DNA of 64,000 nt, from assembly GCF_003383615.1 (NCBI RefSeq), contig NZ_QNUL01000008.1:62001-126000 (forward strand), read 5' to 3'. Below the pieces are notes generated by a model, which worked only from the letters and a program-made list of their open reading frames with translations, was not told the origin of the DNA and searched no databases. Source of the DNA: Dyadobacter luteus. GTDB taxonomy: Bacteria > Bacteroidota > Bacteroidia > Cytophagales > Spirosomataceae. Position numbers and translations under genes: made by a program. Below, in pieces: positions 5,779 to 30,709 of the stretch (positions are counted from its first letter, which is position 1; each line of letters begins with the position of its first letter).

Positions 5779-6834
5779 TTATCTGGCTGCGTACATATCA
5801 GCATAGTACTTCTGGTAGTTACCCGAAGTAACATTTTCTAACCATTCTTTATTGTTAAGGTACCAGTCAACTGTGCGTTCCAGCCCTTCTTCAAATTGCA
5901 GGGATGGTTTCCATCCCAACTCTTCTGAAAGTTTGGTTGCATCAATCGCATAACGGAGATCGTGTCCTGCTCTGTCTGTTACGTAAGTGATCAGCTTTTC
6001 AGTTTCACCTTCTTCACGGCCCAGCTTCTTATCCATCGTTCTGCACAACAGCAATACCAGATCGAGATTTTTCCACTCGTTATGACCACCGATATTGTAG
6101 GTTTCCCCATTTTTTCCATCGTGGAAAATCACATCAATAGCGATCGCATGATCCTCTACGAAAAGCCAGTCTCTCACGTTTTCACCTTTCCCGTATACAG
6201 GAAGTGGTTTACCAGCCAATATGTTATTAATCATCAACGGAATCAGCTTCTCGGGGAAGTGATTAGGTCCGTAGTTGTTTGAACAGTTGGAGATGACAAC
6301 CGGCAAATTGTAAGTATTCTGGTAAGCACGTACGAAATGATCAGACGAAGCTTTCGACGCAGAATACGGTGAACGGGGGTCATACTTTGTATCTTCTGTA
6401 AAGAACGTACCCGGATCGTGAAGCTCTCCGTATACCTCATCAGTAGAAACGTGATAGAAGCGACGGCCAGTAAAGTCATCCTTCCATGCTTTTTTTGCCG
6501 CATTTAGCAAATTAACGGTTCCTACCACATTGGTCATTACAAATGACATCGGATCGGAAATAGACCTGTCAACATGACTTTCTGCAGCAAGGTGAACGAT
6601 TCCATGAAAATCTCCTTCACCAATCAGCTTATCTATAAAAGCAGCATCAACAATATCTCCTTTTACAAAGGTATAGTTAGGTGCATTTTCAATATCACGC
6701 AGGTTTTCAAGGTTCCCTGCGTAAGTCAGTGCATCAAGATTGTAAATATGATATTCAGGGTGATTCGTTACGAAACGTCTTACAACGTGCGATCCGATAA
6801 AACCCGCCCCTCCTGTAATTAAAATCTTCTTCAT
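5779..6834 (-). CDS. rfbB: dTDP-glucose 4,6-dehydratase RfbB
   Basis: A 351-residue extended short-chain dehydrogenase/reductase; converts dTDP-glucose to dTDP-4-keto-6-deoxyglucose. Rossmann motif GGAGFIGSH at residues 8-16, the THVDRS-equivalent AESHVDRSI, the STDEVYGEL segment with catalytic Asp-Glu, the YSASKASSD catalytic Tyr-Lys, and NCSNNYGP all match. The ATG at 6834 is preferred because it overlaps the galE stop codon as ATGA; the frame extends 11 codons upstream only from within galE. Length is that of E. coli RfbB (about 360). Co-transcription with galE is strongly implied by the overlap. Confidence 0.96.
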   Translation of the reverse strand: MKKILITGGAGFIGSHVVRRFVTNHPEYHIYNLDALTYAGNLENLRDIENAPNYTFVKGDIVDAAFIDKLIGEGDFHGIVHLAAESHVDRSISDPMSFVMTNVVGTVNLLNAAKKAWKDDFTGRRFYHVSTDEVYGELHDPGTFFTEDTKYDPRSPYSASKASSDHFVRAYQNTYNLPVVISNCSNNYGPNHFPEKLIPLMINNILAGKPLPVYGKGENVRDWLFVEDHAIAIDVIFHDGKNGETYNIGGHNEWKNLDLVLLLCRTMDKKLGREEGETEKLITYVTDRAGHDLRYAIDATKLSEELGWKPSLQFEEGLERTVDWYLNNKEWLENVTSGNYQKYYADMYAAR

Positions 6835-7850
6835 TTTTTTGGTGTGATTTTTAGTTGCCAGTTCCACGCATCTCTCAATGCGTCAGCCATCGTTTTTTCG
6901 GCTTTCCACTTCATTACATTGTTGACCTTATCTGACTGGGCATATATTTTTTCAACATCCCCTTCTCTTCTCGGTCCGATTGTATAGTTAAGCCTAACGC
7001 CATTTACCTCTTCAAAAGTATTGATCAGTTCGAGAACGGTATAACCTTCACCTGTTCCGACGTTAAAAACATCATAGTAGTTATCTTTTTCTTCTTCATT
7101 CAACCGCTCCAATGCTTTCACGTGCGCTTTTGCAAGATCCACAACATGAATAAAATCCCGTATACAGGTTCCATCTTCAGTATCATAATCATTTCCGAAA
7201 ACCGTCAGAGAGGCACGAAGTCCCGCTGCTGTCTGCGTAATAAACGGTACCAGATTACTTGGAACTCCATTTGGCAATTCACCTATTAATGAAGATTCAT
7301 GTGCGCCGATCGGATTGAAATATCTCAGACTGATGGCCTTAATATCCGGACGCGAATAAACATGATCTCTGATGATATCTTCCGCAATCGCTTTCGTATT
7401 GCCGTAAGGAGAAGTGGCTGGCTGACGTGGAGTCAGTTCTGTAACAGGTAGTTGCTCTGGCTGACCGTACACGGTGCAGGAAGAAGAGAACACAAAATTT
7501 TTCACATTAAACTCCTTCATAGTCCGAAGAAGCACCAGCAATGAAATAAGATTGTTTTCGTAATAATTCAGAGGCTTATCTACCGACTCCCCTACTGCTT
7601 TATATGCCGCAAAGTGGATTACTCCGTCAAATTTTTCCTTCTCGAACAGCTCTCTTACCTTTTCAGTGTCGTTACAATCAATATTGTAAAAAGGGAAATC
7701 TTTGCCGGTGATTTCTCTAATACCCTTTAATACATCCAGATTGGAGTTATAGAGATTATCGACAATAACTGGTTGATAACCAGCCCTATCTAGTTCTACC
7801 ACTGTATGGGAGCCTATAAAACCCACACCGCCAGTAACAAGAATTTTCAT
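6831..7850 (-). CDS. galE: UDP-glucose 4-epimerase GalE
   Basis: A 339-residue SDR enzyme interconverting UDP-glucose and UDP-galactose with a bound NAD+. The N-terminus carries TGGVGFIGSHT (residues 6-16), with HFAAYKAVGESV, the SSSCTVYG catalytic Ser/Thr region, YGNTKAIAE Tyr-x3-Lys, and the RYFNPIGAH segment typical of GalE. Length matches the bacterial enzyme (338 in E. coli). It is the first gene of the galE-rfbB unit; the stop codon overlaps the rfbB start by 4 bp. It provides galactose donors for surface polysaccharides alongside the dTDP-sugar enzymes. Confidence 0.96.
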   Translation of the reverse strand: MKILVTGGVGFIGSHTVVELDRAGYQPVIVDNLYNSNLDVLKGIREITGKDFPFYNIDCNDTEKVRELFEKEKFDGVIHFAAYKAVGESVDKPLNYYENNLISLLVLLRTMKEFNVKNFVFSSSCTVYGQPEQLPVTELTPRQPATSPYGNTKAIAEDIIRDHVYSRPDIKAISLRYFNPIGAHESSLIGELPNGVPSNLVPFITQTAAGLRASLTVFGNDYDTEDGTCIRDFIHVVDLAKAHVKALERLNEEEKDNYYDVFNVGTGEGYTVLELINTFEEVNGVRLNYTIGPRREGDVEKIYAQSDKVNNVMKWKAEKTMADALRDAWNWQLKITPKK

Positions 7851-27869: not shown

Positions 27870-29066
27870 ATGGAAACTACTCTACCATCATTGTCTCCGG
27901 GCCAGACGTATGCTTTGAATAAAAAGGCCAGTATTCCGGTTTACATTCTTGCGACGGTTTTTTCCTCCTTTTGCGTGATCACCGGACTGATCTGGGACAT
28001 TTGCTGGCATATTTCCATTGGCCGTGACGGACTGCTATCTCCTCCTCACCTGATCATTTATCTGGGAGCTGTGGTAGCTGGACTATTTTCTGGTTATGAA
28101 ATTCTGCGAAAAACCTTTTGGGGATCAGCTGACGAAAAGGCTGGAAGCGTAAAAATATGGGGATTTTTTTACAGCTCACTTGGTGCTTTGTTTTGTGTCT
28201 GGGGTGCCATTGCTATGCTCACTTCGGCTCCCTTCGACGACTGGTGGCACAATACCTACGGACTGGATGTAACCATACTTTCTCCACCACACACCGTACT
28301 GCTATTAGGCATGATCGGCATACAATTCGGAGCAATGATCAGTGTGATCGCCATCAGTAACCAGTTTAAGACCTCACACAATCGGACAACTACCAATAAG
28401 CTGTTCACACTCTTTGCACTGTCCGCAGGCTTTTTACTTACCATCTGGTTCACATTACTGTCAGAAGAATTGGGCAGAATGGAGTCGCATCGCTCCAGCT
28501 ACTATATCTACGCAGCATTTGCCTTTCCTCTATTACTTTTTGCCACAGGCAGAGCAGTCCGTCATAAATGGACGATCACTGCTGTTACCACTGTTTACAC
28601 GGTGATGATGCTGGGTACACTTTGGATCATTCCATTATTCCCTGCTGAACCAAAACTAGGACCGGTTCTTAATCACATCGATCATTATCAGGCTTTTCAA
28701 TTTCCGCTACTACTTATTATTCCGGCTATTGTTTTGGATTTAATAAGGGCGAAACTCACTCACCTGAACGACTGGACACTTTCGCTTATACTGGGCATCA
28801 CATTCATAGCCGTTTTCTTTATCGTACAATGGTTTATGGGTGGCTTCCTGATGGAATCTCCTTATGCCCGTAACTGGTTCTTCGGATCCGATTCCTGGTA
28901 CTTTGGCAACAATCCTGACTTTGAATTCCGCTACAAATTTGCTCCATGGATGCTGGAGAGTAACTCAGAACTCATCCAGGGCCTGGGCATTGCACTGGCA
29001 GGCAGCGTAATTTCTACCCGCATCGGACTTTCATGGGGAAACTGGATGCATAAAATTCAAAGATGA
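27870..29066 (+). CDS. Polytopic membrane protein with duplicated WH...SPPH motif
   Basis: A 398-residue inner-membrane protein with about nine hydrophobic helices (near 24-42, 62-82, 97-117, 141-161, 178-197, 211-230, 238-256, 279-294, 302-323). Two copies of the motif D-x2-W-H-x3-G-x-D-x(3,4)-S-P-P-H occur at residues 43-60 and 123-141, each following the start of a helix; the paired histidines, aspartates and tryptophans suggest metal, heme or proton chemistry. A third pair is NHIDHYQ at 269-275. I do not recognise a named family. The stop codon overlaps the start of the next gene (ATGA), so it is co-translated with a secreted His-rich protein. Function unknown. Confidence 0.75.
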   Translation: METTLPSLSPGQTYALNKKASIPVYILATVFSSFCVITGLIWDICWHISIGRDGLLSPPHLIIYLGAVVAGLFSGYEILRKTFWGSADEKAGSVKIWGFFYSSLGALFCVWGAIAMLTSAPFDDWWHNTYGLDVTILSPPHTVLLLGMIGIQFGAMISVIAISNQFKTSHNRTTTNKLFTLFALSAGFLLTIWFTLLSEELGRMESHRSSYYIYAAFAFPLLLFATGRAVRHKWTITAVTTVYTVMMLGTLWIIPLFPAEPKLGPVLNHIDHYQAFQFPLLLIIPAIVLDLIRAKLTHLNDWTLSLILGITFIAVFFIVQWFMGGFLMESPYARNWFFGSDSWYFGNNPDFEFRYKFAPWMLESNSELIQGLGIALAGSVISTRIGLSWGNWMHKIQR

Positions 29067-30709
29067 AAAAGCTTCTCAACCTCCTTTTCCTGACTGTATT
29101 GGGTCACTTGGCTCATGCACACGTCGGTAGCACTGGTGTTCAAATGCAGGGACAAGCCGGTCCTTACAAAATTCTGGTGAACATACAACCGCCGGATGTC
29201 ATTCCCGGAACAGCCCGCGTAACCGTATTCGTAGAAAACGGTAATGTCACTTCTGTAGAAGCCCGACCCATCTATTTCAGATCCGGCGACAAAGGCGCTC
29301 CTTCAGCTGATAAACTGATAGCAAGCCAGCAAAGTCAGTTTGAAGGTGACATATGGCTGATGGAGCCTGGCTCATCCAGCGCCCAGATTCTTGTGGATGG
29401 AGATAAAGGCAAAGGCGAACTTATTGTACCTGTCATGGCCATTTCTACAGCACAAAGGGATATGCCGGAAGGTTTGGGAATTATGCTGAGTGTGTTGGGA
29501 ATTATATTGTTTACACTGATGATCACCACCATTGGTGCCAGTGTTAGCGACGGACTTTTACCTAAAGGCGAAACATTGAGTCAGCCTAAAAGACGAAAAA
29601 AATACATCAACATGGGCATTGCCAGTGTGGTGTGCGCGTTGATTCTCTACGGCGGCAGCAGCTGGTGGAACGCCTGGGCAGCTCAATACAAAAAGCACCT
29701 TTATCAACCCATTAAAGGTAGTGCGTCTGTATTGGATCAGGGCGATGAACGGACGTTCAGGGTAAGTATTGATACAGCCGACTGGCAATCTCAAAACAGA
29801 GGTAATATGCTCAGCACGCTCATACCCGATCATGGCAAACTGATGCATGCATTTTTAATCCGAGTTCCTGGCTTGGATGCCTTTGCCCATATCCATCCTG
29901 AGCGGCAAGACAGCACTACTTTTCAAACTTCATTACCCAATTTACCAGGAGGTAAATATGTAGTTTATGCTGATATTGTTCGTTATTCAGGATTTTCAGA
30001 AACCATTACAGATACAATTGTCATTGCTGAGCATTCCAGAAAAGCACCGGAAAGTCCGAAGTTTTCCGAAGATACCTACATCATAACAGATCCGATTAAC
30101 GCGCCGGGAAATGTGGCCATGGATGCAGACGTGGTCATCTGTGGTAAACCCGGAACAAAAACTGTTTTCCAGGATGGTTCCTATGCCATTTGGGAAGGTA
30201 AACCGGATCAGGCATTGGAAGCAGGAAAAGCGTATCAGCTCAACTTTGAAATTTTTAACCCTGACAATAGCCCTTGTCTTCCCGAACCTTACCTGGGCAT
30301 GATGGGCCATGCAGTGGTAATGCGAAGCGACGGATCTGTGTATGTGCATCTGCATCCTTCAGGATCATTTCCTATGGCGGCAGAACAAATTTTCAAGAAC
30401 CGACTGGCAGATACGACCAAACTCATCAAAAGACCAACTTCAGTCGTATTTAAAGACAGCGTTGATAGTTATCTGACGAAACTGAAAGCCATGTCAGTAC
30501 TCGAACGGGAAGAATTTCTGATGACCGAAATGGGCATGTATGAACCGAATGAGAGCGGTATGGTAGGGATGGATCATGGAAGCAGAATTTCATTTCCTTA
30601 TTCCTTCCCCAAGGAAGGGCGCTACCGGATTTTCCTGCAAGTGAAGCGTAATGAAAGAGTTCTTACGGGAGCTTTCGATGTAAAAGTAAAGGGGCCTTCT
30701 GTTATGTAG
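29063..30709 (+). CDS. Membrane-anchored protein with duplicated HxHP domains, possible copper binding
   Basis: A 548-residue protein. The signal peptide ends A-H-A at 17-19, so signal-peptidase cleavage would leave His20 as the new N-terminus (HVGSTG). Residues 20-130 are a CopC/YtkA-like beta domain; 139-158 and 184-200 are hydrophobic, probably two membrane helices. The C-terminal half carries a duplicated pattern: MHAFLI...FAHIHPE (H262, H276, H278) and MGHAVV...YVHLHPSG (H416, H429, H431), each followed by a P-x-G-x-Y-x-beta strand, and a GMDHG at 502-506. The His/Met pattern fits copper or another soft metal but no ligand is proven. It overlaps the membrane-protein gene by 4 bp. Confidence 0.75.
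   Translation: MKKLLNLLFLTVLGHLAHAHVGSTGVQMQGQAGPYKILVNIQPPDVIPGTARVTVFVENGNVTSVEARPIYFRSGDKGAPSADKLIASQQSQFEGDIWLMEPGSSSAQILVDGDKGKGELIVPVMAISTAQRDMPEGLGIMLSVLGIILFTLMITTIGASVSDGLLPKGETLSQPKRRKKYINMGIASVVCALILYGGSSWWNAWAAQYKKHLYQPIKGSASVLDQGDERTFRVSIDTADWQSQNRGNMLSTLIPDHGKLMHAFLIRVPGLDAFAHIHPERQDSTTFQTSLPNLPGGKYVVYADIVRYSGFSETITDTIVIAEHSRKAPESPKFSEDTYIITDPINAPGNVAMDADVVICGKPGTKTVFQDGSYAIWEGKPDQALEAGKAYQLNFEIFNPDNSPCLPEPYLGMMGHAVVMRSDGSVYVHLHPSGSFPMAAEQIFKNRLADTTKLIKRPTSVVFKDSVDSYLTKLKAMSVLEREEFLMTEMGMYEPNESGMVGMDHGSRISFPYSFPKEGRYRIFLQVKRNERVLTGAFDVKVKGPSVM

Follow-up and report, generated by a model that had tools for sequence, protein, structure and literature searches.

A fused membrane protein and its histidine-rich partner in Dyadobacter luteus: a probable diverged relative of the copper membrane monooxygenases

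Two overlapping genes of Dyadobacter luteus (Bacteroidota; Cytophagales) encode a membrane protein and a histidine-rich exoprotein that very probably share kinship with the copper membrane monooxygenases (CuMMOs), the enzymes that initiate the aerobic oxidation of methane and ammonia. Both lie in a stretch of 64,000 nucleotides, called the window here (contig NZ_QNUL01000008.1 of RefSeq assembly GCF_003383615.1, positions 62,001 to 126,000). An earlier, sequence-only reading of this DNA gave the same coordinates, lengths and ATGA overlap for the two genes, and proposed that they form a system for the uptake, storage or maturation of a metal, most likely copper. The analysis reported here likens the first product (protein 1) to CuMMO subunits C and A fused in one chain (“CA”), and the second (protein 2) would take the place of subunit B. 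The features are located in Table 1.

Table 1. Position of the two genes, their features and a shortened form of protein 2 (window positions unless a locus is given)
Feature	Position	Strand	Size or residues	Basis or remark
Protein 1, “CA” membrane protein: PmoC-like half and predicted PmoA-fold half	27870..29066	+	398 aa	
PmoC-like half of protein 1	27939..28373	+	aa 24-168	AlphaFold2 helices; hhalign to PmoC set
Motif 1 of protein 1, D43-x3-H47-x4-R52-x7-H60, CuC-type	27996..28049	+	aa 43-60	Spacing, conservation
Motif 2 of protein 1, D123-x3-H127-x13-H141, CuD-type, Asp for Asn	28236..28292	+	aa 123-141	
Predicted PmoA-fold half of protein 1	28371..29063	+	aa 168-398	VIA; hhalign register
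ATGA stop/start overlap of the two genes	29063..29066	+		
Protein 2, His-rich exoprotein, PmoB-like layout	29063..30709	+	548 aa	
Predicted signal peptide of protein 2, AHA/H cleavage	29063..29119	+	aa 1-19	
Predicted mature N-terminal His20 and first beta domain of protein 2	29120..29452	+	aa 20-130	
Two transmembrane helices of protein 2	29468..29695	+	aa 136-162 and 174-211	
Ectodomain repeat 1 of protein 2	29705..30052	+		H257, H262, H276-x-H278-P
Ectodomain repeat 2 of protein 2	30200..30697	+		H416, H429-x-H431-P
Shortened protein 2 form	L147:4740-5906; L148:4884-6050			Three of seven ectodomain His lost; genomes without protein 1

The N-terminal half of protein 1 consists of four transmembrane (TM) helices arranged as two tandem hairpins (24-49, 58-84, 104-130 and 139-168) in an AlphaFold2 model based on 40 of 81 sequences (predicted local distance difference test, pLDDT, 87.9; predicted template-modelling score, pTM, 0.88). 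Each hairpin carries one copy of the duplicated motif recognized in the earlier reading, and the two repeats align to each other with E 1e-10 (0/60 column shuffles as good). In one published account of particulate methane monooxygenase (pMMO), the copper ligands are D156, H160 and H173, with Arg165 near, for CuC; N227, H231 and H245 for CuD; and the N-terminal His33, H137 and H139 for CuB (PMC12576850). Measured against these, D43-x3-H47-x12-H60 of protein 1 has the spacing of D156/H160/H173, with R52 at D+9 as R165 stands to D156, and D123-x3-H127-x13-H141 has the spacing of N227/H231/H245 (PMC12576850).

A genome scan found 313 relatives of protein 1; the locus counts given below rest on the best 80 of these, so divergent forms are under-represented. 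Together with the window they yielded 81 sequences of protein 1 and 79 (window plus 78) of protein 2, two loci (L058 and L062) being absent from the latter alignment because their contigs end before any protein 2. Residues D43, H47, R52, D53, H60, Y64, D123, D124, H127, D133 and H141 are invariant (81/81). The CuC triad D-x3-H-x12-H and the CuD spacing x3-H-x13-H are present in all aligned sequences (81/81 for each), with Asp, not Asn, as first CuD ligand in every sequence (81/81). To offset the closeness of these 80 relatives to the window protein, five further loci, divergent or otherwise unusual, were read as well: all retain the motif ligands, with D133 replaced by Gly in one, and the eight invariant histidines of protein 2 (H20 and the seven of the ectodomain, see below) are kept in all five partner proteins.

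Homology of this half to PmoC is supported, by sequence for the first hairpin and by register only for the second. A CA profile of 45 proteins (40 from Bacteroidota and 5 actinobacterial) aligned with a reference profile of 8 PmoC/AmoC/HmoC sequences, taken from annotated plasmids, at an hhalign score of 38.2, with the CuC and CuD ligands and the Arg in register; the best column shuffle reached 23.1 and the best block shuffle 28.3 (0/100 each at or above 38.2), and the reversed profile 14.7. The 40 Bacteroidota sequences alone scored 34.0 (E 8e-4, probability 24 percent). Hairpin 1 matched the PmoC CuC hairpin at E 6e-7 (0/60 shuffles as good), a value that applies to segments cut around the motifs after the whole profiles had aligned there. 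As a single sequence compared with the PmoC profile, protein 1 ranked above all 225 control genes. In PmoC, too, CuC and CuD follow a common plan, D/N-x3-H-x12/13-H, which may go back to a tandem duplication in the distant past; within the PmoC set alone the hairpin repeat is undetected (3/60 shuffles as good), as against E 1e-10 in the protein 1 family.

The second half, residues 168-398, is predicted to have a PmoA-like fold. Submission of the protein 1 model to VIA returned pMMO or ammonia monooxygenase (AMO) subunit A chains at all of ranks 1-12 (Z 10.4-15.6, counting 3rfr_B as subunit A through its sister chain), followed by the next unrelated chain at Z 8.2. The best match, 6cxh chain B, aligned 196 residues at 3.5 Å, placing 168-398 on 15-243; because helical bundles may reach Z about 13 in such searches, its Z of 15.6 with no other family near is good evidence but not absolute. 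Foldseek likewise put pMMO/AMO subunit A at ranks 1-2, with probability 1.00 but E 0.06-0.07. No PmoC chain stands among the 50 matches listed in either search with the whole model. The alignment of the CA and PmoA profiles (170-322 on 18-167) shares its register with the structural match and brings together (F/W)P-x5-(P/A/G)AI-x-LD, equally spaced in both families.

Protein 2 is laid out as a signal peptide, an N-terminal His, a beta domain, two TM helices and further beta domains, an order that invites comparison with CuMMO subunit B: the plan of PmoB is an N-terminal His, a beta domain, two TM helices and a beta domain. The AHA/H site proposed in the sequence-only reading occupies residues 17-20. 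H20 is His in 79/79 aligned proteins, and residue 19 is small in all of them (A in 64, G in 8, S in 7), each of these being a plausible signal-peptidase -1 residue; cleavage is predicted to leave His20 as the mature N-terminus. The first beta domain resembles immunoglobulin-like (Ig-like) folds; its best solved matches, on a par with each other, are a CBM56 (Z 9.7) and CrdA, a copper protein of Helicobacter (Z 9.4). The matches that Foldseek listed for the whole protein, modelled from an alignment of 34 of the 79 sequences, are Ig-like multidomain proteins. The internal duplication of the C-terminal half is real: residues 215-330 align with 380-545 at E 8e-4 in alignment A2 and at E 2.9e-9 on a small set with stand-alone relatives (0/60 shuffles as good in both cases). 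Conservation of the HxHP clusters also held up, H257, H262, H276, H278, H416, H429 and H431 being invariant (79/79); the GMDHG histidine H505, which had been grouped with them, is His in 47/79 only and falls outside the set. The HxH pairs (276/278 and 429/431) lie C-terminal to the TM hairpin, and the HxH typical of the first beta domain of PmoB is absent from the first domain of protein 2.

The two genes travel together, a point that the earlier reading had set as a check. Protein 2 overlaps or begins at most 138 bases after protein 1 in 78/80 loci, and both exceptions are cut off by the end of a contig, which in L062 comes immediately after protein 1 and in L058 follows a second, tandem copy of that gene. 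In a sample of 241 Cytophagales genomes, the source genome included (thresholds E 1e-5 for protein 1 and E 1e-30 for protein 2), protein 1 was found in 37 and protein 2 in 39, and every genome with protein 1 also has protein 2 (37/37). By coordinates the genes are side by side in 34 of these; in the other 3, all from one genus, they occupy different contigs, with other genes flanking protein 2 in all three and protein 1 in one, so that both are retained even when unlinked. Genes near one unlinked protein 2 (L150:5147-10646) encode what we take to be heme A synthase and protoheme farnesyltransferase.

Two genomes of the window's own genus (G457 and G531) carry protein 2 alone, in a form of 388 residues. 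Its alignment to protein 2 covers only the part from residue 201 or 175 onward, so that the N-terminal His domain and the first TM helix are missing, and it has Q, R and R in place of H257, H276 and H431. Decay of a lone protein 2, probably in one event, would be as coupling to protein 1 predicts. Full-length protein 2 occurs in just 5 of 395 genomes sampled across the phylum (in two others the match is confined to 63 profile positions), and the pair is therefore patchily distributed. Some loci hold the CA gene in unusual forms. Tandem copies are found at L145:2172-4770, followed by protein 2, and at L058:5001-7437; in each locus the motif ligands are intact in the two copies, while E199 is lost from one copy in L145 and H207 from one in L058. 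At L144 (G453:C10:234290-235461) the gene, with D133 as Gly, is in two overlapping frames near residue 220, from a frameshift or a gene split.

Distant relatives of protein 1 were found by tblastn in seven actinobacterial plasmid records, including plasmids of Streptomyces, Leifsonia and Mycolicibacterium; six loci (L089-L094) were viewed, the seventh, on another Streptomyces plasmid, encoding an identical protein. Among the five proteins aligned, motif 2 spacing is kept in 5/5 and motif 1 spacing in 4/5 (L091 has two extra residues). Both motifs resemble those of protein 1, but the system is one polypeptide instead of two: in 4/5, AxA-HDPGQG and additional sequence come after the TM part, an arrangement suggestive of C, A and a short B in a single chain. 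None of these sequences was seen to carry the duplicated HxHP ectodomain; weak FixH/YtkA Pfam matches in L092 support a beta domain in one. Copper genes, by annotation, surround four of the six loci viewed: heavy-metal ATPases and a four-helix copper protein at L090, an adjoining CopC gene at L091, a multicopper oxidase and a cupredoxin at L092, and a cupredoxin and an ATPase at L094. The mycobacterial plasmid pMYCCH.01 bears a further relative, with a BlaI/MecI/CopY-type regulator about 3 kb away and heavy-metal genes at a distance of about 7-11 kb; the same plasmid holds a canonical hmoCAB besides this distant one-gene CA relative (the two at L141:7590-9059 and L103:3036-6099). The CA gene of a Rubrobacter marinus plasmid (L089, about 6000-7022) is frameshifted after motif 2.

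The ectodomain of protein 2 also has stand-alone counterparts on plasmids, where 18 records matched and three proteins were aligned. All seven ectodomain histidines are in register in the three, while the N-terminal His domain and the two-TM hairpin of protein 2 remain unaligned. Two of the three adjoin heavy-metal or copper P-type ATPases (one of them on pMYCCH.01), and the third, from Planococcus, has no such neighbour by annotation. One, on pTC1, carries an HMA domain above the Pfam cut-off, with CopZ models below theirs. No CA gene is annotated or was noticed at the three stand-alone loci viewed.

Taken against known systems, the pair resembles pMMO, AMO and hydrocarbon monooxygenase (HMO), encoded by xmoCAB, in the CuC- and CuD-type ligand spacing with its Arg, the predicted PmoA fold and the gene order C-A-B. 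It differs in having two genes rather than three, with C and A fused, in a PmoC part cut down to four TM helices, and in Asp for Asn at CuD. Protein 2 departs from PmoB in that its HxH pairs follow the TM hairpin, in two repeats. Given that the Asn ligand, the first-domain HxH, the three-gene form and a match to a curated model are all lacking, the pair is filed as a diverged relative built like a CuMMO, not as a CuMMO member. The sequence-only reading knew of no family uniting both proteins. This stands for curated models, with no AmoC, PmoA or PmoB model above cut-off for either window protein, but a link to a characterized family does exist, because protein 1 is a distant PmoC homologue with a predicted PmoA-fold half. 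No CA-fused or Bacteroidota CuMMO relative is described in the literature searched, which took in passages of PMC12576850, PMC12533140 and PMC6215863 and had bioRxiv and most subscription journals outside its coverage.

Several results weigh against kinship with the CuMMOs and a role in copper handling. The lead of protein 1 over the controls in the single-sequence PmoC comparison is narrow (25.7 versus 24.4), and just 21/225 of those controls have at least four TM helices. Hairpin 2 alone gave no alignment with the PmoC CuD hairpin (50/60 shuffles as good). The CA-PmoA profile alignment is marginal, at a score of 20.9 with 2/100 and 1/100 shuffles as good, and 6/225 controls score at least as high as protein 1 as a single sequence against the PmoA profile. 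The AmoC model PF04896 matches neither the window protein nor anything else in its own genome, and there is no CuMMO model among the 25 of 28 families listed for 40 protein 1 members. Among actinobacterial relatives, PF04896 appears below cut-off in 2/5 proteins, on the shared motif, and in 3/6 records known to carry a relative, and the AmoC models TIGR03078 and NF041641 match below cut-off in 2/3 proteins, again on that motif. The PF04896 match in the Rubrobacter relative covers both motifs (profile 125-224), also below cut-off; since the same model has sub-threshold matches in 2/14 control genomes, such matches alone prove little. For protein 2, homology to PmoB was not found by sequence for the whole protein or its first domain, and no PmoB stands among the 50 matches listed in each of two fold searches. 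Its TM hairpin and following repeat gave E 0.02 and 0.026 against PmoB, barely above 60 shuffles each, and these scores do not count as evidence of homology. Among the actinobacterial loci, L093 has only a YHS-domain and a BlaI/MecI/CopY-type neighbour, and annotation places no copper gene close to the Rubrobacter locus L089. Clustering of the 80 Bacteroidota loci, made with no family search of the neighbours, revealed no third gene family recurring widely beside the pair.

Other searches contributed little. Sequence-only family and PDB searches with both window proteins, and PDB searches by profile, gave nothing usable. The viral structure library held no usable match (best probability 0.23 among the 50 matches listed), and a search of viral contigs and phages with HmoC drew a blank. 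Sub-threshold or scattered matches to the family models IcmT_TraK, NuoJ and Mitofilin were dropped, as were scattered matches to DUF6338 (9/40 protein 1 members, best E 7e-5) and Zip (3/40) and one below cut-off to Acyl_transf_3 on an actinobacterial relative. A TonB-receptor-like partner was also dropped, being found at 7 loci in different positions.

We regard the CuMMO relationship of the pair as highly probable and lean toward a two-polypeptide copper membrane complex on a CuMMO scaffold that handles or oxidizes copper. In protein 1 a minimal PmoC, its two tandem TM hairpins bearing CuC- and CuD-type ligands, would be naturally fused to a PmoA-fold bundle; protein 2 would take PmoB's place, exposing an N-terminal His and two HxHP clusters outside the membrane. 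Its ectodomain may capture periplasmic copper and hand it to the membrane sites of protein 1, where the metal could be handled or oxidized with O2, for detoxification or copper loading. Copper in the membrane sites is suggested by the conserved ligands, formation of a complex by co-occurrence of the genes, and a copper-handling role by analogy with the actinobacterial relatives. The CuC/CuD-type ligands, the invariant, predicted N-terminal His, an ectodomain shared with proteins of heavy-metal islands and the four actinobacterial copper loci together argue for the copper part of the sequence-only proposal; its uptake, storage or maturation system missed the main point, a PmoC homologue fused to a PmoA-fold half. 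On present evidence copper handling seems somewhat the better guess than substrate oxygenation, and a new branch on the CuMMO scaffold engaged in copper handling or oxidation is more likely than one engaged in alkane oxidation.

Even so, the same scaffold might serve catalysis. The pair could be a deep CuMMO branch that hydroxylates a small substrate at a CuC/CuD pocket with electrons from quinol, which is the main rival reading but in our view the less likely one: invariance extends to the entire first-sphere CuC set, the Arg and Y64, the aromatic residue that stands where F177 does, and the PmoA-type scaffold, as predicted, and the C-A-B order are retained, but the CuD Asn has become Asp in all sequences, the first domain of protein 2 is without a PmoB-type HxH, and copper genes accompany four of the six loci viewed in actinobacteria. 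Outside the pair, each gene cluster is confined to at most 7 of the 51 loci from beyond Dyadobacter, in a clustering made without family annotation of the neighbours, so no linked product pathway stands out. A different line of thought takes copper as given and denies the kinship. CopC has an N-terminal His, as protein 2 is predicted to have, and its Ig-like beta domain, like those of CrdA and YtkA, resembles that of protein 2; given also that CopC is encoded next to L091, that FixH/YtkA weakly match L092 and that YtkA matches 3/34 protein 2 relatives (best E 9e-4), a CopC/CopD-like transport pair whose ligand spacing arose by convergence can be imagined. We judge it unlikely: CopC (PF04234) and CopD match neither protein of the pair and are absent from the families listed for relatives (25 of 28 families for 40 relatives of protein 1, 23 of 23 for 34 of protein 2), CbtA matches 1/40 protein 1 members at E 0.24, we know of no CuC/CuD-type partner for CopC, CrdA or YtkA proteins, and convergence leaves both the PmoA fold and the hairpin match at E 6e-7 unexplained. 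That helical bundles often give middling Z scores, and that protein 2 matches many Ig-like folds, might even suggest a generic resemblance with function elsewhere; the fall from Z 15.6 to 8.2 after twelve top chains of one family makes this very improbable, as does the sequence match obtained independently for the PmoC-like half of protein 1.

The active-site copper of the CuMMOs (CuB, CuC, CuD) and the evolutionary origin of these enzymes are still argued. A relative with CuC and CuD as a plain repeat, and with HxH outside the first B domain, offers a natural test of which sites are important. Carried by common soil bacteria and, in Dyadobacter among others, by cultivated ones, the pair is within reach of gene deletion and purification. 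A bolder proposal, on which we are doubtful, is that a sister lineage of the methane and ammonia monooxygenases, with CuC/CuD as a tandem duplication and a fused CA, is active as an oxygenase in cultivable soil Bacteroidota, the superfamily deriving from copper-detoxification proteins like those in actinobacterial copper islands. More broadly, the pair may show what the methane- and ammonia-oxidizing copper enzymes evolved from; if it only handles copper, methane oxidation would seem to have been built on a copper-handling scaffold.

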